The notes beneath the pieces were generated by a model. It did not search any database. It saw only the letters and a list, made by a program, of their open reading frames with translations, and was not told where the DNA came from. A stretch of DNA of 36,234 bases from Opitutales bacterium (GTDB lineage Bacteria; Verrucomicrobiota; Verrucomicrobiia; Opitutales; T3Sed10-336), in NCBI GenBank assembly GCA_007130045.1, contig SLTG01000033.1:1-36234 (forward strand), in the 5' to 3' direction. Shown piece after piece: positions 2,632-12,868 of this stretch. A program made the translations under genes and the position numbers. How positions within the stretch are numbered: position 1 is the first letter of the stretch; every line of letters starts with the position of its first letter.

Positions 2632-3039
2632 TCAGGCTTTGGTTTTCGGATAATAACGGACGCGGGGCAGGTCTTTAAAGTGATCGTCTTGCGTCCAGAG
2701 CGTGGCTTTGTGAGCGAGAGCGACCGCGTAAATCAACGAATCGGCGAGCGGGAGTTTGTGTTTGATGAAAAGGTCGGCCGCCGCCACGGCGATCTCTTCG
2801 TCGATGGAAACGACGATTCCGGACCGCATCGATTGGGTGACCGTGTCCGCCATTTCGCGGGTGCGTTGTTTGAGGACGACCTTGCGAACCTCGGCGATGA
2901 CGATGGCCGGAACGATCAATTCGGGGAGTTTTTTCAGGACCGGAGCGAAATGCCGGGTGTTTGGGCCGTCGTCCAAACACTCGATCCAGCCCGATGAATC
3001 CAGGAGGTCGAGCCGGGCGGACTTGGCTTGTTTGGTCAC
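2632..3039 (-). CDS. PIN-domain (VapC-like) toxin
   Basis: This is a 135-residue PIN ribonuclease with the full acidic set: D14 in LLDSSGWIE, E50 in IVIAEVRKV, D100 in PLADSLIYAVA and D118/D119 in LWTQDDHF. It is expected to be a metal-dependent RNase toxin held in check by the AbrB-type protein encoded just upstream. It starts with GTG, and that GTGA overlaps the antitoxin stop by 4 bp, a classic coupled arrangement. Unlike the PIN gene at 1076-1474, all catalytic positions look intact. The RNA target cannot be told from the sequence. Confidence 0.88.
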   Translation of the reverse strand: MTKQAKSARLDLLDSSGWIECLDDGPNTRHFAPVLKKLPELIVPAIVIAEVRKVVLKQRTREMADTVTQSMRSGIVVSIDEEIAVAAADLFIKHKLPLADSLIYAVALAHKATLWTQDDHFKDLPRVRYYPKTKA

Positions 3040-3251
3040 AGTTCCCGATCCTCCTCACGCTCGAATTCCAGCGGCTCGCCCTTTTTCTTCAAGTAGCCGA
3101 TCAGTTGGTCGGGCGACAGGATTGGACGCAGCTCGATGCCGCCCCCTTTTTCGGTGACCTGGAGTTTCTGGCCGGGTTTGAGGGCAAGCTTTCGCCGAAC
3201 ATCCTTCGGGATGACGATTTGGAATTTGGGTGATATTGTTGAAGTTGTCAT
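3036..3251 (-). CDS. AbrB/MazE-type (VapB-like) antitoxin
   Basis: This 71-residue protein is counted from the ATG at 3251, giving MTTSTISPKFQIVIPKDVRR. The 'S.K.Q.VIPK.VR..L.L..G..L' pattern is the swapped-hairpin SpoVT/AbrB DNA-binding domain found in VapB and MazE antitoxins. The C-terminal third (LIGYLKKKGEPLEFEREED) is charged and would bind the toxin. An in-frame start seven codons upstream (3272) is possible, but the extra MLRYFIG does not fit the family. The stop codon overlaps the toxin's GTG start. Autorepression of the pair is expected from the family. Confidence 0.87.
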   Translation of the reverse strand: MTTSTISPKFQIVIPKDVRRKLALKPGQKLQVTEKGGGIELRPILSPDQLIGYLKKKGEPLEFEREEDREL

Positions 3252-3399
3252 ACCGATGAAATATCGCAACACGAATAGGAATTCGCAAGATTATTGATCA
3301 CAGGAGGAAAGCGGCGGGATCGTCGGTCGCGTCGGGTGGTGGTCGGTGCATTCCGGGAGGGCGGACTGGCGGCGGCTCAGCCCGAGGACGTTCGCCCAT

Positions 3400-3436
3400 G
3401 ACGGAGTTCCGCATCAAACTTTCGGGATCCTCCGTC
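3400..3436 (-). terminator. Hairpin at the end of the tonB/ATP-grasp operon
   Basis: GACGGAG at 3400-3406 and CTCCGTC at 3430-3436 form a 7-bp stem that ends in the M20 peptidase stop codon. No run of T follows on the minus strand, so intrinsic termination is uncertain. It may instead protect the 3' end of the transcript. Confidence 0.3.
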
Positions 3437-4574
3437 ACAAAGCCAGCCTCAGCTTGTGCTCCAGATATCTTTCGTAGATGCGGTGGAAGCGGAGCATCGA
3501 CGCGATATCGATCCATTCGTCGGGGGCGTGCAGGTTGCCGGACAACGGGCGGGACATAAGAACGGGGATTCCCAGGGCGCAGATGAATCGTGCGTCGCTG
3601 CCGCCGTGGCCGCGGACAAACCGGGCCGGCTCGCCGGTAATTTCTTCGGTGATTTTCCGGTAGGTCTCGTCCGGGGAGAGGTGGGTGGGTTCGGCGCCGA
3701 TCAGGGTTGTGGTTTCGATGTCGACACCGAGGATTTCGTTGACGAATTGCGCCATTTCCGCAACCGTGTGAGGTGCCGGGAATCGTATGTCCAGGATGGC
3801 TTCGGCTTCGGCGGGAATGGCGTTGACGCTTTGATTGGGAGTGCCGATCAGGGTCACCGTGCAGGTCGGATGCCAGTGGTCTTCCGCGTTGTCGGGCGGC
3901 CAGGCGGCGTCGAAACCTTCTTTCAGCGCAACGAGGCGCGCGATAAGAATCTCAATGGGATTTATTCCCGCCCACGGTCGAGCGCCGTGCGCCGGCCTGC
4001 CGGTGCTGTGCGTCCGCATGTGCAGGATCCCTTTTTCTTCAATGGCGATCCGGTTCAGCGAACCGGCATCGGGGATCATCGCGAGTCCGCAGCGAACACC
4101 GGCGTCATTGAACAGGTAACCGACTCCGTGTTCCCCGCCGGATTCCTCGTCGGCCGTTACCGCCATCCCGAGCGAAGCGCCGGGGTGAAGGGTGTGGACG
4201 TGACGGAAGATTTCCAGCATGATCGCAAGAGGACCCTTCATGTCCGCCGCCCCCGGCCCGTAGATCCTTCCGTTCTCGAGGCGCGAACGGAAGAGCGCCG
4301 GATCGGTGTGGGCGACGACGTCAAGATGACCGCAAAGGAGAACCTCCGGATGGGCGCATCCGCGCGGCGCGGCGATGACGGATGGGATGTCATTTTTGCT
4401 GTACTCGCGGATCTCCACGGTATCCAATGCGTCGAGATGGTTCTTGATGAACTCGTAGCAGCGCTGCCGGTCTTCCGGGCGTGCCGCGCTGCTTGGCATC
4501 AGGATGAGGTCGCGCGTCAGCGAGACCAGACGCTGCTTGAGCCGTTCGCTTTCGGTGGAATCAGTCGCGGTCAT
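3435..4574 (-). CDS. M20-family metallopeptidase (ArgE/DapE/carboxypeptidase G2-like)
   Basis: This 379-residue protein is full length for M20 enzymes, which use two zinc ions to cleave peptide or acyl-amide bonds at a free carboxylate. Visible motifs are LLCGHLDVV (H83, D85), GPGAADMKG (bridging D111), TADEESGG (catalytic E143, metal E144), PDA (D169) and a C-terminal HAPDEW zinc histidine. A typical dimerisation 'lid' lies between. No signal peptide is present, so it is cytosolic. Its ATG overlaps the end of the ATP-grasp gene by 14 bp, implying translational coupling. The substrate cannot be named: amino-acid deacylation (ArgE/DapE) is possible, but the coupling suggests trimming or recycling of the ligase product. 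No M20-dedicated biosynthetic operon surrounds it. Confidence 0.85.
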   Translation of the reverse strand: MTATDSTESERLKQRLVSLTRDLILMPSSAARPEDRQRCYEFIKNHLDALDTVEIREYSKNDIPSVIAAPRGCAHPEVLLCGHLDVVAHTDPALFRSRLENGRIYGPGAADMKGPLAIMLEIFRHVHTLHPGASLGMAVTADEESGGEHGVGYLFNDAGVRCGLAMIPDAGSLNRIAIEEKGILHMRTHSTGRPAHGARPWAGINPIEILIARLVALKEGFDAAWPPDNAEDHWHPTCTVTLIGTPNQSVNAIPAEAEAILDIRFPAPHTVAEMAQFVNEILGVDIETTTLIGAEPTHLSPDETYRKITEEITGEPARFVRGHGGSDARFICALGIPVLMSRPLSGNLHAPDEWIDIASMLRFHRIYERYLEHKLRLAL

Positions 4575-5937
4575 AATTCCAGGTCATGGCAGGGTGGCGG
4601 CGGATGAGATGGAACGCCGATTCCACGTCGTCGCGGTTCCGGCCCAGGGCTAGCAATTGAGCCTTGGCGACCACACCTTCGTCGTTTGCGTTGAAGTTAA
4701 CCGGAAGCACGCCGGATTCGTTTCCGGGCCGGTAAAGGATGCCCAGGGATTCGAGCTCGTTCAGGATTGCGTCGCTCTTCCGCGGCGTGGTGAACATTAC
4801 GTTGCGCATGATCCAGGCGCCGCGTGGAACGAACCGACGTGCAAGAATGGCGGGATAGGTGGCGCCGGTAACGCGGGCATTGATCTCGCAGAGCCGAATT
4901 TCGATTTTTCCGTCGCGCCTGACCATGTGGAAGTCGGCGCTGGCCGTGCCGCGATAACCGATCCCGTGCAGCCACCGTCCCCCGACTTCCGCCTGTTGAA
5001 GCAACTCGCGGGTGACCTGGGGCGCGCCCTGCAGGAAGGGGGGTGGCGCCTGGTTGCCTTCGTGGACGCTTTCCGCGTTCAGGAATTGGGCCGTGATGTC
5101 GTAAAGGTGGAGCCGGTTGTCGTGGACGAACATCTGGACGCTGGGCGATCCGAGTACTTCAATACCTTCGAGCGAGTCATCGAGCCATCCCTCGACGAGG
5201 CAGGGGCCTTCGAAGAACAGGTAGTCCGGAATCCCGGAGGGAGCGGAGACATCGAGTTTCCTCATGCCGACCCCGGACGCGCCGATTTGCGCCTTAACGA
5301 CCGCGTACCGGTAACCCCAGTCGTTAAGGATTTGAAGGCAGCGCGGAACGTCCGACGGTGATTCCGCAACGACAGTGTCGAACGAAGGCAGTCCCGCCTC
5401 CGCAAGATGCCGGTGCAGGAGGAGTTTGTTGTTTCCGCATTTGCTGCCCTCGACTGACGAGATCAATTTCTTGTCCGTGAGTTCGGCGGTGTGTGCAAGA
5501 AGCTCATCTGTGACGAAGCCGTCCATCCAGATGGAGGGATGGCTCTTGATCGTTTTGAGGACATTTTCCAAGACGGCTGATGTCGCGCCTTCCCGGCGTG
5601 CCGCGTAATCCGCATGCGGCAGAATTTCGATCTCCGGGAGGTTTAACCCGAGGTCTTCCTGAAAATACCGCCATAACCTCGCGTCCGGTTCCCGTTCGAG
5701 GGTGAGGAGGTTCCGGCCGCCCGCGAAGACCATATTGACAATCGGCACCAGGCGCCCGCCGTACGTTTCGAGCGCTCCGACTTCTTCGCGCAGTGTTTCA
5801 GTTTCCAGTTCGTTTCCGAAAAAAAGGGACAGCAAGTTTGCGACGAATACTGCCTCGCGATCCCAGAGCTCGGGAAGTTCGCCGGGCGCTTCGCGCACTT
5901 CCATGAAGGTGGATTTGGCCTTGTTTGATTCGACCAT
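4561..5937 (-). CDS. ATP-grasp ligase with pre-ATP-grasp domain, PGM1-like (putative peptide ligase)
   Basis: This is a 458-residue protein counted from ATG 5937. The N-terminal part (about 60-165) has GGRLVPIVNMVFAGG and resembles the pre-ATP-grasp domain of PGM1, the ligase that joins peptides in pheganomycin synthesis. The ATP-grasp core shows the nucleotide lysine and glycine loop VVKAQIGASGVGM (213-225), an E-G pair in CLVEGW (246-251) and the metal-binding EINAR (351-355). The tail (GVLPVNFNANDEG and on) resembles the PGM1 C-terminal region. Such enzymes activate a carboxylate as acyl phosphate and join it to an amine. It starts 16 bp after the TPR gene and overlaps the M20 peptidase. 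ATG 5904 is an alternative start; neither has a clear ribosome-binding site. The substrate is unknown. Confidence 0.75.
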   Translation of the reverse strand: MVESNKAKSTFMEVREAPGELPELWDREAVFVANLLSLFFGNELETETLREEVGALETYGGRLVPIVNMVFAGGRNLLTLEREPDARLWRYFQEDLGLNLPEIEILPHADYAARREGATSAVLENVLKTIKSHPSIWMDGFVTDELLAHTAELTDKKLISSVEGSKCGNNKLLLHRHLAEAGLPSFDTVVAESPSDVPRCLQILNDWGYRYAVVKAQIGASGVGMRKLDVSAPSGIPDYLFFEGPCLVEGWLDDSLEGIEVLGSPSVQMFVHDNRLHLYDITAQFLNAESVHEGNQAPPPFLQGAPQVTRELLQQAEVGGRWLHGIGYRGTASADFHMVRRDGKIEIRLCEINARVTGATYPAILARRFVPRGAWIMRNVMFTTPRKSDAILNELESLGILYRPGNESGVLPVNFNANDEGVVAKAQLLALGRNRDDVESAFHLIRRHPAMTWNYDRD

Positions 5938-5953: not shown

Positions 5954-7390
5954 TTATCGGCCGCGCAGGATGTCCACGATCCGCTCGAGGTAACGTGCCA
6001 CGTTTTCGCGCGGGCGGATCTGCTGTGAACGGCGCAGGAGTTCGGCCGCGCGTTCGAGATGATTTTCGCGCACCAGGAACTCCGCGTGTCTGAGGTAAGC
6101 TTCCGCTTCGTTTCCGGGCGCGCGCGCAGCCCGTTCGAAAAGCAACTCCGCACGTTCCCGATCTCCCTGCTCGCCGTAATGGCGTGCGAGGAGGATGAGT
6201 GACGCGCCGTCCAAGGGATCTTCCTCCACGACGCGTTCCAGGAGTCGGATCGCTTCGTCTTCGTCTCCGGCGTGAAGTTGGATCCGGGCGCGCAGACGCG
6301 TGAGCTCGAGTCCGACATCTTCCAGCGCGTCCGCTTCGTAGCGCCGCTCAATCTCAGCGAGGAGCGTCGAAGCTTCATCCCAGGCGTATCGCCCGGTCAT
6401 GTTGCGCGCGGCGCGAACCGCGCGGGAAATCTGAACGGGCGGATCGCGGTCAATGGCCTCCAGGTAAACTTCGGTGGCGAGCCCGGGCAACTCTTCGCTC
6501 AGATAAATATCACCGAGGGTGGCCAGGCTTTGGGCGGTGGCCCCGTTCAGACGTCGGACGAGTTCGTAGTTGACAGCGGCGCGTCGCGGTTGGTCCATGC
6601 CGAGAAACGCGTTCGCCTGGTACAGGTAGTATTCCGGGCGCTCCGGGGCATCCGTGATGAGTTCTTCGAGAATTGAGTTCGCCTCGCCATAACGATCCTG
6701 GGCGAGCAACACCTGCGCGGCGCCCAGCCGCCATTGAAGGTTCTCCGGATCGTGCAGAAGCGCTTGGCGGTAGGCGCTCTCCGCGGAATGGAAACGCTCG
6801 ATGTTCAGGTAACTGAGACCGAGAAGCCCGTAAGTGTTCCCGTCGAAGCCGCCGAGTTCGATCGTCCGAGTAAAGCCTCGCGCGGCGGCCGAAAACTCGC
6901 CCTCCCGTACCCGGATCATCGCGAGGTTCTTGTGGGCGCGCATGAAGTTGGGGAATTTATCGAGTGCGGTCTCATAATGAAGCGCGGCTTCGTCCGTTTC
7001 ATCGAGTTGAAAGTAAAGATTCCCGAGCACAAAATCGAGGGCCGCGCTGGAGTCGGCGGTAAGCGCCGCTTCCAGGCGTTCGATCGCAAGGCGCGGATCC
7101 TCTTGGATGAGTTCGATCAGCTCGGCCAGGAAGTTCTGTTCGTCGCGCGTGATCGTCGGCTCGATGTCCGTGGCGAAACCGTACGTCCCCATGAAGCTTT
7201 CGACAAAAGCCGGGTCCGTCCAGAACTCGCGTCCGGGAATTCCGTCGCCGTCCTGGCTAAACGCGACCGTTGCCGTGAACGTCAGGATTCCGAGCGCCGC
7301 GCCGGCGAGGATTCCGATGCATCGCCGTCGGGCGGATGTTGATCGAGTCTCATCCAGGGATGTATCCGATTTGTTATGACAATATTTCAC
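5954..7390 (-). CDS. TPR-repeat periplasmic protein of a TonB/TtpC system
   Basis: This is a 478-residue protein beginning at GTG. A basic stretch (TSARRR) and hydrophobic segment (residues about 24-44, ending near VAFSQDG) form a signal peptide, so the rest is periplasmic. From about residue 90 to the end it is a run of tetratricopeptide repeats, recognisable by the W/LG..Y...A...Y..AL..P spacing, for example ALDFVLGNLYFQLDETDEAA and AHKNLAMIRVREGEFSAAAR. TPR proteins of this size commonly close operons of DUF3450, TtpC, ExbB, ExbD and TonB genes and are thought to scaffold the energy-transduction complex. The gene begins 7 bp after the tonB stop. No Shine-Dalgarno sequence is visible. Confidence 0.85.
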   Translation of the reverse strand: MKYCHNKSDTSLDETRSTSARRRCIGILAGAALGILTFTATVAFSQDGDGIPGREFWTDPAFVESFMGTYGFATDIEPTITRDEQNFLAELIELIQEDPRLAIERLEAALTADSSAALDFVLGNLYFQLDETDEAALHYETALDKFPNFMRAHKNLAMIRVREGEFSAAARGFTRTIELGGFDGNTYGLLGLSYLNIERFHSAESAYRQALLHDPENLQWRLGAAQVLLAQDRYGEANSILEELITDAPERPEYYLYQANAFLGMDQPRRAAVNYELVRRLNGATAQSLATLGDIYLSEELPGLATEVYLEAIDRDPPVQISRAVRAARNMTGRYAWDEASTLLAEIERRYEADALEDVGLELTRLRARIQLHAGDEDEAIRLLERVVEEDPLDGASLILLARHYGEQGDRERAELLFERAARAPGNEAEAYLRHAEFLVRENHLERAAELLRRSQQIRPRENVARYLERIVDILRGR

Positions 7391-7397
7391 GGTCGTA

Positions 7398-8069
7398 TCA
7401 ATCGAGTCTGAATTCGACGGGGGTGCGCACCAGGGTTGGCACGGGTTCTCCGTCTCTCACTCCGGGTTCGAACCTCCACTGTCTTACGGCGTCGAGGGCG
7501 GGACGCTCGAACTCGCGATGTGTCGAGTCCTCGACGCGCGCGTCTCTCACGCGTCCGGTTTCGTCGATGACAAAAAGCAGTGTCACGGATCCCGAGATCC
7601 GGTTCCTGCGCATCGAGTACGGATACACGGGCGGCGGACGGCTGACCGCGGTCGGGACGCGGTCGAGCTCGGACACTTCGAATGCGCCGAAACCAGCGAC
7701 GGTGTCGGCCCTGAGATTGAATCCGAAATGGAAATCGGCGCGCAACGCGTCTCCCGCGGCCGGCTCGAGTGCCAGCTCGAGTTGGTCGAATTCGATCGGC
7801 TCGATCTCCCGCTCCGGCGCGGGAGGAATTTCATCGGGCGCGTCCTCCGGTTCGCCCGGCGGAGACGGCGGTGCTTCCGGCGGGGGAGGCGGCGGAGGAG
7901 GGTCGGCGAGATCGACGCGGGCGGGCGCCTCATCGATGGGGACCTCCCTTCCCGTAAAGATTTGTGTCAGCGGAAGAATGAGAAAGACAAGCAGGGTGAG
8001 CCCAATCGCGCACATGATCACCGCGAATCGGTGACTGACAGTGCTCGGAGGATGGTAAACGCGTTTCAA
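7398..8069 (-). CDS. tonB: Energy transducer TonB
   Basis: This is a 223-residue protein. A single membrane anchor (about residues 15-38, FAVIMCAIGLTLLVFLILPL) is followed by a periplasm-spanning proline-rich segment (DPPPPPPPPEAPPSPPGEP and on). The C-terminal TonB fold contains RPPPVYPYSMRR, GSVTLLFVIDETGRV, ALDAVRQWRFEPGV and a closing TPVEFRL. TonB carries proton-motive energy from ExbB/ExbD to outer-membrane receptors. The frame opens with TTG at 8069. An ATG at 8015, just before the anchor, is an alternative and has a GGTGA sequence upstream. It follows exbD by 62 bp, the largest gap in the operon, so a separate promoter is possible. Confidence 0.92.
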   Translation of the reverse strand: MKRVYHPPSTVSHRFAVIMCAIGLTLLVFLILPLTQIFTGREVPIDEAPARVDLADPPPPPPPPEAPPSPPGEPEDAPDEIPPAPEREIEPIEFDQLELALEPAAGDALRADFHFGFNLRADTVAGFGAFEVSELDRVPTAVSRPPPVYPYSMRRNRISGSVTLLFVIDETGRVRDARVEDSTHREFERPALDAVRQWRFEPGVRDGEPVPTLVRTPVEFRLD

Positions 8070-8131
8070 GGAGAGTTGGACTTATGTGGTTGGTTGCCGA
8101 TGCGGATAAAACATAGCACATTCACGAAAAA

Positions 8132-8536
8132 TCACGGGTGATCGGCGGCGATACTGATATCGTCGGCGCCGCCGAGTTTCGCCTGGTCGATCACGCGCAC
8201 GACAACTCCTGCGGCCGCGTTTTCGTCGACCTGGAGGATGACCGGAAGCCTCTCCTGCTGAACGAGCCTGCGGACGACCGGACGAACTCCGCTCACTCCG
8301 ATCTCTTCATTCCCGTAGACGACCTCGCCGGAGGCGGTGATTGCTATCAGGATACTTTGCCGGTCGAGATCGGCGGCTGACGCGGCCTCGGGGCGTTGGA
8401 CGTCGACGCCGGTTTCTTCGACAAAAACGGTTGTGACGATGAAAAAGATCAACAGGATGAACACCATGTCGATCAACGGAGAGATGTTGATGTCGGCGGT
8501 TTCGCTGTCCCGTGAGAGCGTTCGACGACTTATCAT
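8132..8536 (-). CDS. exbD: ExbD/TolR-family biopolymer transport protein
   Basis: This is a 134-residue protein with one N-terminal membrane helix. The segment INISPLIDMVFILLIFFIVT contains the conserved membrane Asp (in LIDMVF) that carries protons in ExbD/TolR. The periplasmic domain (about 45-134) ends with the usual VQVDENAAAG.VVRVIDQAKLGGA pattern. It works with ExbB to power TonB. The start overlaps the exbB stop (ATGA), and a strong AGGAGG lies 10 nt upstream inside exbB, one of the few clear ribosome-binding sites in this window. Confidence 0.93.
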   Translation of the reverse strand: MISRRTLSRDSETADINISPLIDMVFILLIFFIVTTVFVEETGVDVQRPEAASAADLDRQSILIAITASGEVVYGNEEIGVSGVRPVVRRLVQQERLPVILQVDENAAAGVVVRVIDQAKLGGADDISIAADHP

Positions 8537-9150
8537 GAGGCCAACTCCTCCTTTTGAGAACGCTTGTGGAATGCCTGCATCGTCAGGCTTTCGAGTCCGG
8601 CGAGGAAAGCGGAATATTCGTTGCGGCGCCGGCGCACGGTCGAGGCCATGAAGTATCCGGGAATCGCAATGAGGAGACCGGTTTTGGTTGTGATCAGGGC
8701 CGTCGATACTCCCGAGGCCACCATATCGATGACCCGGCCTCCGCCTTCCGCCATGGCGTCGAAAGTGGAGATCATGCCGAGCACGGTCCCGAGCAAGCCG
8801 AGGAGCGGCGCGGCGGTGGTGAGGACGACAAGGAAGAAAAGGCGCCGGTCGATCTTCGGAAGCACGGCGAGGCGGACTTCCTCAAAGCGGTTGCGGATTT
8901 CCTGAAGGGAGGAAACATCGTCCTGCGAGTAGCGGATGATTTCGCCGACCGGGCCGAACGCGGATTCGGTGTTCCGTATCCAGCGGTTGCAGGTCTCAGG
9001 ATTCATCCGTTGGTACTCGCTGCGGTTAAACGTGAAGAACAGATCGGCGGCGAACGCGTACATAAAGATCGCGAGCAGGGCGAGGGGGATCATGACCCAG
9101 CCTCCGTCACCCCAGATCCGGGCTGTTTCCTGGAAAAAAAATTCAAGCAT
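8533..9150 (-). CDS. exbB: ExbB/MotA/TolQ-family proton channel protein
   Basis: This is a 205-residue protein with three membrane helices. One is near residues 18-38 (GGWVMIPLALLAIFMYAFA). The second contains FLVVLTTAAPLLGLLGTVLG, the conserved channel helix. The third is near ALITTKTGLLIAIPGYFMAS. It forms the pentameric proton channel that surrounds ExbD and drives TonB. It is the second MotA/TolQ-type protein in the operon, shorter than the TtpC-like protein before it. Its ATG overlaps the end of that gene by 8 bp. Confidence 0.92.
   Translation of the reverse strand: MLEFFFQETARIWGDGGWVMIPLALLAIFMYAFAADLFFTFNRSEYQRMNPETCNRWIRNTESAFGPVGEIIRYSQDDVSSLQEIRNRFEEVRLAVLPKIDRRLFFLVVLTTAAPLLGLLGTVLGMISTFDAMAEGGGRVIDMVASGVSTALITTKTGLLIAIPGYFMASTVRRRRNEYSAFLAGLESLTMQAFHKRSQKEELAS
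8547..8552 (-). promoter_or_regulatory. Strong Shine-Dalgarno sequence for exbD
   Basis: AGGAGG on the minus strand, inside the exbB coding region, 10 nt before the exbD ATG. It supports the 8536 start. Most neighbouring genes lack such a site, so ExbD translation may be set independently of ExbB. Confidence 0.8.
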
Positions 9151-10549
9151 CTTTCGCCGTTTCGCGGACGGAGAGTCCGTTAATGAATCCGATGGAGGTT
9201 TGCTCCATGTTGGAAATGACTCCCTTGCTTTTTCGCGAGAGAAGCGCGTGGACGATCAGCGCCGGGACAGCGACCATCAATCCGAACTGTGTGGTGATGA
9301 GGGCTTCGGAGATGCCGCCCGACAGGGTCTGAGCATCGCCGGTGCCGAAGAGGGTGATGAGCTGGAAGGTCTGAATCATTCCCGTCACCGTGCCCAGCAG
9401 TCCCAGGAGCGGCGCCGTCGCGGCCGTCAGGGCGATCAAAGGCATCAATCGGTCCAGCTTTGGTTGGGTGCGGAGAATCTTTTCATACATGACCTCTTCG
9501 ACCAGCTCCCTCCCCTCGTGTGCGTGGGAGACCGCCTCGCGGAGCATCTCGCCGACCGGCCCGCGGGACTTTTCGGCGCGGCTTTTCGCCTCCCTGGTCT
9601 CTCCCCGCCTGACCGCTTCGAGTATGCGCTGCAATTCGTCCGGGGGCAGCGGCGACATCCCGGCGATTTCTTTCCATTTGTATAGGCCGACGAGAAGGGC
9701 GATCGCAGCGAGGAGGAGGATCGGGACCATTACGGGACCGCCTTGACGAATGTGTCCCCAGACGGATTTCCGCGCTTCTTCGCGCCGGATCGCCATTCCT
9801 TCCGTGGGATCGACCGGCAGGTAGCCCTCTCCGGTCTCCATCAGTGCCGGAATGTCCTGTCGAAATGCGGACGGAAGCGGGTAGATGAAGGGTTGAAGCG
9901 ATCCCTGGCGAAGGATCGCGAGGCCTCCGTGCCCGGTGTCTTTACCTTGGAACACGGCGACCGGGCCGACCAGGGCAAAGGTTCCATCGCGCAGCGCGCC
10001 GTCGGCCCGGAGAGCGCGTCCGGGAAAAACGTGTCCGCCGGCGACGTTGCCAAGGCGTTCGGCGGCGCGGTCGAGCATATCGAAGCGCGCCTCGAACCCT
10101 TCAACCCGAGGTTCCTGCGCGTCGTCTTCGCGAATTTGACGCAGAGAGTCGCGGAAGTGCGGGAGTTCGGCGATGTGGAGCCGCGCTTCGAAAGCCTCGA
10201 GATAGTCATCGATCAGGTTTTTGAAGTAGGCGAGTTGATTCCGGCGTTGCTGCGCTTCGTCCTGCAGTCGCCGCGCTTCAGCTTCGCGGTTGTCGCGGAG
10301 CCTTGCCATGCGTTCGTATTCGCGTCGCTGCTCCGCGAGCCGGGCTTCCAGTTCGTTGAGGCGACGGGCCAATGGAATTTTTTCCTCAGCGATCCGTTCC
10401 CTGACCGAGGAAAGCTCTTCCAGAGCACTGTCGAGATCATAGCGGACCCGGTCCGATACGGCGTCGAGGCCGGCTGGCTGAGCGGATGCGGCCAGCGAGA
10501 AGCCGGAGAGGCCGAGCACGATCAGATTTAAGAAAAATGCGCGCGGCAT
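9143..10549 (-). CDS. TtpC-like MotA/TolQ/ExbB protein with periplasmic coiled-coil N-terminus
   Basis: This is a 468-residue protein. A signal peptide (MPRAFFLNLIVLGLSGFSLAASAQ) leads into a long coiled coil (about 30-130, rich in E/R, for example RRLNELEARLAEQRREYERM). A globular periplasmic part follows, then three membrane helices (VPILLLAAIALLVGLY; LIALTAATAPLLGLLG; ALITTQFGLMVAVPALIVHA) of the ExbB/TolQ type. This is the architecture of TtpC, the extra component of Vibrio TonB2 systems. It begins 3 bp after the DUF3450 gene and overlaps exbB. It probably links the inner-membrane motor to periplasmic partners. Confidence 0.88.
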   Translation of the reverse strand: MPRAFFLNLIVLGLSGFSLAASAQPAGLDAVSDRVRYDLDSALEELSSVRERIAEEKIPLARRLNELEARLAEQRREYERMARLRDNREAEARRLQDEAQQRRNQLAYFKNLIDDYLEAFEARLHIAELPHFRDSLRQIREDDAQEPRVEGFEARFDMLDRAAERLGNVAGGHVFPGRALRADGALRDGTFALVGPVAVFQGKDTGHGGLAILRQGSLQPFIYPLPSAFRQDIPALMETGEGYLPVDPTEGMAIRREEARKSVWGHIRQGGPVMVPILLLAAIALLVGLYKWKEIAGMSPLPPDELQRILEAVRRGETREAKSRAEKSRGPVGEMLREAVSHAHEGRELVEEVMYEKILRTQPKLDRLMPLIALTAATAPLLGLLGTVTGMIQTFQLITLFGTGDAQTLSGGISEALITTQFGLMVAVPALIVHALLSRKSKGVISNMEQTSIGFINGLSVRETAKDA

Positions 10550-10552
10550 GGC

Positions 10553-11323
10553 TCAGCGGTTTTGGATGGCGACGGGCAGCCGGATGAATTCAGGAGCGGT
10601 TTCGAGGTCGTAAACGGCGAACGCCCGGCGAATCGAGGCTGCCGCGTCGTTGCGCGGGGTCCATTCCCATCCGTCGTCACCCGGACTTCCGATCCCGGCG
10701 CGGTTGCCTTCCGAACTCAAATAGTAGGCCTGACCCAGCCCGATGTAGAGAACCCGAACCTCGGTTTCGTCGCCGTCCAGCGAAACAAATTCCCGGACCG
10801 CGCGGATGTTCTCCTGGAATCGGTCGGCTTCGCCAAGAAAACCGACCATGGCCTGCGCACGCTGGGCAAGGGGAGCGGCGGGAACGTTGTTTTCGCCCGG
10901 TTCCCGGCGGGCAAGAAGCGGACGCGTGCGGTCGCGGAGCGGTTCGGGAAAGGAAGCGAAGAGGCCGGGAAGTGCGCGTTCGGTCCGGCCGATGCGGTGT
11001 TCGACGGTGTTTGTGATTTCGAGCAGAGCTTCGTTCTGTTCGCCGAGACGGCTCAGTTCCATCTCGGCCGCGGCGGATTCCTCTTCCGTCAGTTCAATGT
11101 CGTCTGCGAGCCGGGAAAGTTCCCGTTCGATGAGTTCAATCGTTTTTTCCAGTCCTTCCCGTTCCGTCCGCCACTGGGTTTCCTCTTCAGAAATCAGTTT
11201 CCGGGTCTCAATCAATCGGTCGAGCGACGAGCGGACCTCGTTGCCGGAGCTTTGGAGCGGGACGGCTAACAACGCGGCGAACAGAAGGGCGGAGGCGAAT
11301 GAGAATTGAATAAGAAAAGTCAT
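10553..11323 (-). CDS. DUF3450 periplasmic protein, first gene of the TonB operon
   Basis: This 256-residue protein is counted from ATG 11323, which gives a good signal peptide (FLIQFSFASALLFAALLAVP). An upstream in-frame extension to 11404 lacks signal character and was not used. Residues about 35-120 form a long coiled coil (RLIETRKLISEEETQWRTER, then repeated E/L heptads). The C-terminal part has YIGLGQAYYLSSEG and GWEWTPR, typical of DUF3450. The family is regularly encoded next to TtpC-type ExbB proteins and is thought to belong to the TonB2 complex. The exact role is unknown. The operon's promoter should lie in 11324-11600, between this gene and the oppositely oriented next gene. Confidence 0.85.
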   Translation of the reverse strand: MTFLIQFSFASALLFAALLAVPLQSSGNEVRSSLDRLIETRKLISEEETQWRTEREGLEKTIELIERELSRLADDIELTEEESAAAEMELSRLGEQNEALLEITNTVEHRIGRTERALPGLFASFPEPLRDRTRPLLARREPGENNVPAAPLAQRAQAMVGFLGEADRFQENIRAVREFVSLDGDETEVRVLYIGLGQAYYLSSEGNRAGIGSPGDDGWEWTPRNDAAASIRRAFAVYDLETAPEFIRLPVAIQNR

Positions 11324-11601
11324 GAATGGCAGGAATTGATACTCGTTCTCAATAAAAATGATGAGTGCTGAGAATTCGCAAGAAGAAAATCGGGAGCTCG
11401 CCATCGATCGAACTCTGATTTCCGCTGAAACGGTGACGACAACGATTGGGTTCGGGATTTGTACCGCAAGCGGACAGGGGATATAACGCGGTGACGATGG
11501 CGCGGCAATAAACGCGAATAGGGAGCCTCAGAGGTGGAGTACCATGGATCTCGACCGTCAATCGCTGCGGTTTTGTTTTGAGATCCTGCGGGCAGTCGTT
11601 T

Positions 11602-12513: not shown

Positions 12514-12868
<355 letters not shown>

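Follow-up and report, generated by a model that had tools for sequence, protein, structure and literature searches.

At the end of a TonB-type operon in an Opitutales bacterium, a gene for a PGM1-like ATP-grasp ligase is followed by a gene for an M20-family metallopeptidase, and the question arises whether a peptide-forming and a peptide-cleaving enzyme in this place serve the TonB motor or make up a unit of their own. The stretch of DNA analysed as a whole, here called the window, comprises 36,234 nucleotides. The ligase gene was delimited by translation (4561-5937, minus strand; ATG start at 5937, stop codon ending at 4561) and encodes 458 amino acids. The peptidase gene, assigned by Pfam (3435-4574, minus strand), encodes 379 amino acids and carries a zinc ligand of the dipeptidase type (Asp). 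The start of the M20 gene lies 14 nt inside the ligase gene, and the sequence of the resulting translational overlap (4561-4574, minus strand) is ATGACCGCGACTGA. On the other side, the stop codon of a TPR gene at 5954 leaves a gap of 16 bp before the ligase. This arrangement had been described in a first-pass annotation of the locus, and coordinates and sequence agree with it; the motifs that it listed (VVKAQIGASGVGM, EINAR, GHLDVV and TADEESGG) were all found in the translations, and its run of eight same-strand genes is right, with Pfam giving DUF3450, MotA/ExbB (twice), ExbD, TonB_C, TPR and Peptidase_M20. An overlap of 14 nt of the type ATGACCG...TGA/TAA occurs in 8 of the 15 ligase-M20 junctions examined, and most of the remaining ones have a gap of a few to about 20 bp. 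The region is flanked by one RNA gene on each side, namely tRNA-Cys (2129-2204) and tmRNA (12514-12868, tag GNEEQLPMAA). Toxin-antitoxin-like genes are also present in the window: one set (2632-3254) encodes a PIN protein and a MazE-type antitoxin, another (1478-1813) a Phd/YefM antitoxin beside a small ORF. A similar PIN/antitoxin pair is found upstream of the ligase at one other locus (L034).

As for the TonB operon, the six genes upstream of the ligase encode a TtpD-like protein recognised by its TPR matches (5954-7390, minus strand) and, according to Pfam, TonB, ExbD, ExbB, a TtpC-like long ExbB and a TtpB-like DUF3450 protein (7398-11404, minus strand). They match, in order and domain content, the Vibrio TonB2 operon ttpB2-ttpC2-exbB2-exbD2-tonB2-ttpD2, which ends in the TPR gene ttpD2 (PMC6957404) and of which the ligase and the M20 peptidase are not members. 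Since the six genes thus represent a complete operon of a known type, the ligase and M20 genes are two extra genes behind it, and we treat the TonB genes as neighbours outside the module. TonB genes adjoin the pair in only two of 16 loci, i.e. in the window and in a relative of the same genus (L006), where the TPR gene and the ligase are separated by a ytoQ gene; they are absent in the other 14. In another genome of the same genus (G001), the pair is located near a gamma-glutamyltransferase gene and the TonB operon on another contig. Similarly, in G006 the TonB operon is followed by a different gene, and a separate contig carries the pair. None of the 12 other positive genomes tested has a DUF3450 gene near the pair, and in genomes consisting of a single contig the two are 439 kb (G164) and 2.5 Mb (G299) apart. 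Of 19 genomes tested, 18 had DUF3450 genes, whether or not they contained the pair, and outside the window and L006 these genes were always located away from it. Because the pair lies mostly away from TonB operons, its tie to the TonB motor, as proposed by the first-pass annotation, is incidental when judged by the refuting criterion which that annotation itself had set, and its place beside the operon is a local accident.

The two genes themselves are tightly coupled. In searches over relatives, the class and the phylum, amounting to 16 loci in total, the full-length ligase was detected in 14 further genomes and in one Kiritimatiellae MAG, which, judging by its isolate name, presumably comes from soda-lake sediment. 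An M20 gene directly follows the ligase gene in all 16 loci, which supports the functional ligase-peptidase pair assumed at first sight. Among 384 genomes of the class, seven contained the full-length ligase and eight the M20 subfamily, including all of the seven, leaving a single genome with the M20 subfamily and no ligase. Members of this subfamily score 520-630 bits, whereas no ordinary M20 in these genomes exceeds 106. The distance matrices of ligase and M20 are correlated (r 0.81, with 0 of 10000 permutations as high), shared ancestry contributing to this value too. The pairing is thus far beyond chance, and the pair is a real module whose two genes stay together across scattered genomes of the verrucomicrobial type. 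Six more genomes gave weak profile matches and were not counted: two of these proteins resemble succinyl-CoA ligase beta subunits, and the others look like different ATP-grasp proteins.

No third gene recurred beside the pair in the 16 loci except among close relatives, and no small ORF that could encode a precursor or carrier recurred within 1.5 kb of the pair beyond close relatives. In L008, the gene immediately ahead of the ligase encodes a gamma-glutamyltransferase (L008:6902-8707, co-directional, 21-bp gap), and another such gene is found close to the ligase in L007 (L007:342-2222, divergent). As a partner of the pair, gamma-glutamyltransferase was rejected, being found in two of 16 loci only.

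The relationship of the ligase to PGM1 is visible mainly through its relatives. The window protein alone has no Pfam match (none to PreAtp-grasp PF18604 at E 1) and matches PGM1 (3wvq) weakly in phmmer (E 0.009). PreAtp-grasp was matched by 10 of 16 relatives (best 1.3e-5), with one relative reaching 28.9 bits in the genome scan (cut-off 27.5) and 26.0 as a single protein; ATP-grasp_3 was matched by eight (best 3.3e-6). A match to PGM1_C (PF18105) was confined to one relative, L032, with an E value of 0.06 and under the cut-off. Profiles of other ATP-grasp ligases were matched as well: a RimK-family profile matched 16 of 16 family members (best 8e-9), the window ligase scoring 14.3 bits and hence below the cut-off of 143.4 for RimK family TIGR00768, and the BesA glutamate-ligase model NF042917 matched one of 16 (E 0.014). 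The ATP-grasp core residues K171, K215, E351, N353 and R355 are invariant in 16 of 16 relatives, and the motif E-x-N-x-R-x-T-G-x-T is common to the ligase and PGM1. A structure model built from two sequences was poor (mean pLDDT 45.7), for which reason the fold matches obtained with it are taken as supporting only. In Foldseek, each of its 16 best matches was a ligase of the PGM1 type (E 2e-10 to 2e-7). In VIA-align, the top rank went to 3wvq (Z 11.3, rmsd 8.6 over 263 residues); carbamoyl phosphate synthetase scored almost as high, and BesA (8yi6) reached Z 9.6. The PGM1 relatedness named in the first-pass annotation is distant, the sequence matches being weak and the top rank of PGM1-type ligases coming from a poor model; "PGM1-like" is a well-supported lead that holds at the superfamily level, and strict membership is not claimed.

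We also noted that the ligase ends in Arg-Asp (window 4561-4572) in essentially all 16 relatives, one of which has a further Arg. The idea that these residues are forced by the gene overlap was rejected, as they are present also at loci where the genes do not overlap; they are therefore a feature of the protein.

Assignment of the second protein was straightforward, both M20 domains being confirmed over cut-off (Peptidase_M20 PF01546, 91.4 bits; M20_dimer PF07687, 55.3 bits). The zinc ligands H83, D111, E144, D169 and H349 and the catalytic E143 are invariant. D169, the third zinc ligand, is invariant in 15 of 15 ligase-linked M20s, and DapE has Glu at the aligned position. According to Lindner et al., as cited in a review (PMC6271292), Asp as third zinc ligand marks aminopeptidases and dipeptidases, and Glu marks aminoacylases and carboxypeptidases. 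From Asp169 and this rule, the M20 enzyme is predicted to be a dipeptidase, i.e. to belong to the dipeptidase/aminopeptidase class. In overall sequence it is nearer to 2rb7, its closest solved relative and itself uncharacterised, and to DapE, though it stays far under the DapE and ArgE cut-offs. The best score against the equivalog set of DapE, ArgE and LysK was 167.7 (cut-off 381), with 101.7 for ArgE (cut-off 297.7) and 54.9 for LysK (cut-off 363). By inspection of the sequences, no signal peptide was apparent in either the ligase or the M20 protein.

Two M20 genes of this kind without a ligase, one in G150 and one at a second locus in G195, lie divergently next to two transglutaminase-like genes (L046:5935-9042 and L047:7797-10831). 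In the tree, these ligase-less M20s are sister to those linked M20s that come from the same family (support 99/97), and they retain the zinc site. Only five positions that are invariant in the 15 linked M20s are altered in both ligase-less sisters: H46, H185, R199, R329 and R342. H185 is replaced by Q, R199 by A, R329 by L and R342 by S. R342 precedes the zinc ligand H349 by seven residues; R199 follows the conserved H196 by three. This pattern, based on one evolutionary event and two sequences, suggests that H185, R199, R329 and R342 form a pocket recognising the product of the ligase. As three Arg and one His of the M20 enzyme track the presence of the ligase, this product is probably acidic.

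A conserved pair with intact catalytic residues in both enzymes, no fixed third gene and independence of TonB is directly established, and on balance we consider it probable that the two genes constitute a stand-alone cytosolic module for synthesis and hydrolysis of one small, probably acidic peptide. ATP-grasp ligases use ATP to activate a carboxylate as acyl-phosphate, which is then joined to an amine, with release of ADP. Acting in this manner, the ligase would activate the carboxylate of an amino-acid-like substrate and join it to the amine of a second substrate, yielding a small peptide and ADP. The M20 enzyme, co-translated with the ligase and of dipeptidase class, would then hydrolyse the ligase's own product, allowing the cell to set the pool size or to recover the building blocks. 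We infer that this product is what the M20 enzyme cleaves, and that it resides in the cytosol; alternatively, the M20 substrate could be a precursor or a later derivative of it. A compatible solute, a storage compound or a protected metabolite are candidates for its use. Co-expressing a synthetase with a hydrolase that undoes its work would be futile unless the two were regulated, and no regulation was seen. A more specific version, which we put forward tentatively and hold to be somewhat short of an even chance, is an undescribed two-gene system of Verrucomicrobiota-type bacteria, in which one specific acidic dipeptide or amino-acid conjugate, serving as a compatible solute, for storage or for signalling, would be formed by a PGM1-like synthetase dedicated to it and degraded by a matching M20 dipeptidase. 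No description of the pair was found in the literature searched, the coverage of which was partial.

The main rival to such a synthesis-and-hydrolysis module is a protecting-group pathway, in which the ligase would tag an intermediate with an amino acid (e.g. Glu), enzymes encoded elsewhere would process the conjugate and the M20 enzyme would remove the tag, as in the LysW/LysX/LysK route or gamma-glutamyl pathways. The RimK-family profile matched by all 16 ligases, the resemblance to BesA in one member's model match and in the structural ranking, and the gamma-glutamyltransferase genes by the ligase in L008 and L007 are all in line with it. However, no gene for processing of an intermediate and no carrier protein recurs beside the pair, and 14 of 16 loci have no gamma-glutamyltransferase gene there; we regard this pathway as rather unlikely. 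The position of PGM1 among the closest solved relatives of the ligase might also point to a ribosomal peptide, modified as by PGM1 in pheganomycin synthesis and trimmed by the M20 enzyme. This we consider quite improbable, as neither a conserved small ORF nor a biosynthetic cluster accompanies the pair in unrelated genomes and M20 enzymes chiefly handle short substrates.

The remaining two explanations concern the context of the pair. Its sporadic spread as a compact two-gene unit would fit mobile conflict systems, with the ligase producing a toxic peptide that the M20 enzyme destroys, or with the pair acting as a defence system. This is very improbable: PADLOC gave no match for the pair, searches of plasmids and viral contigs gave none either, and no toxic partner or exporter recurs beside it. 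Finally, the reading of the first-pass annotation, in which a peptide ligand is secreted and recycled with the help of TonB, was founded on the position of the pair 16 bp behind a TonB2-type operon in the window, and the pair indeed follows closely in L006 as well. As 14 of the 16 loci lack TonB genes next to the pair, and DUF3450 is on other contigs or as far as 2.5 Mb off, such coupling is extremely improbable, and the notion of a ligand that is secreted and taken up again through a TonB receptor is unsupported for a pair that lies mostly away from TonB and has no apparent signal peptides.

A synthesis-and-hydrolysis module of this kind would matter in two respects. The pair points to a small peptide metabolite so far not looked for, built by a ligase type that is known mainly from actinobacterial natural products. 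Furthermore, the hydrolase of the pair, with those of its residues that depend on the ligase, would predict the chemistry of the product, offering a direct route to finding it.

An ATP-grasp ligase and a metallopeptidase acting on one dipeptide are familiar from carnosine synthase and carnosinase and from NAGGN, the genes of which, asnO and ngg among them, are clustered in Pseudomonas and the pathway of which involves an M42 peptidase as well as a glutamine amidotransferase. The ligases of both pairs belong to subfamilies that differ from the ligase described here. As for the hydrolase, PepV and the carnosinase CN2 have Asp as the third zinc ligand, as does the M20 enzyme. BesA, the propargylglycine-glutamate ligase, shares a related ATP-grasp fold and a weak profile match in a single family member; in contrast to its setting, no bes pathway genes were seen near the ligase-M20 pair. 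Ketomemicin clusters use an ATP-grasp peptide ligase to build pseudopeptides with neither a ribosome nor an NRPS (PMC11943689). That enzyme, KtmD, is by description also a ligase joining small building blocks, but it belongs to a six-gene cluster with no peptidase named in its gene list (PMC11943689), compared with the two-gene pair found here. Close parallels are PGM1 of pheganomycin synthesis (3wvq/3wvr) and a Streptomyces ATP-grasp peptide ligase (8ynd/8ynq), which appear to have the same Pre-ATP-grasp plus ATP-grasp architecture, have the shared E-x-N-x-R-x-T-G-x-T motif and are the top fold matches. Identity to these enzymes is low (16-21%), and in contrast to them the ligase described here has no precursor gene, lies outside a natural-product cluster and is always accompanied by an M20 peptidase.
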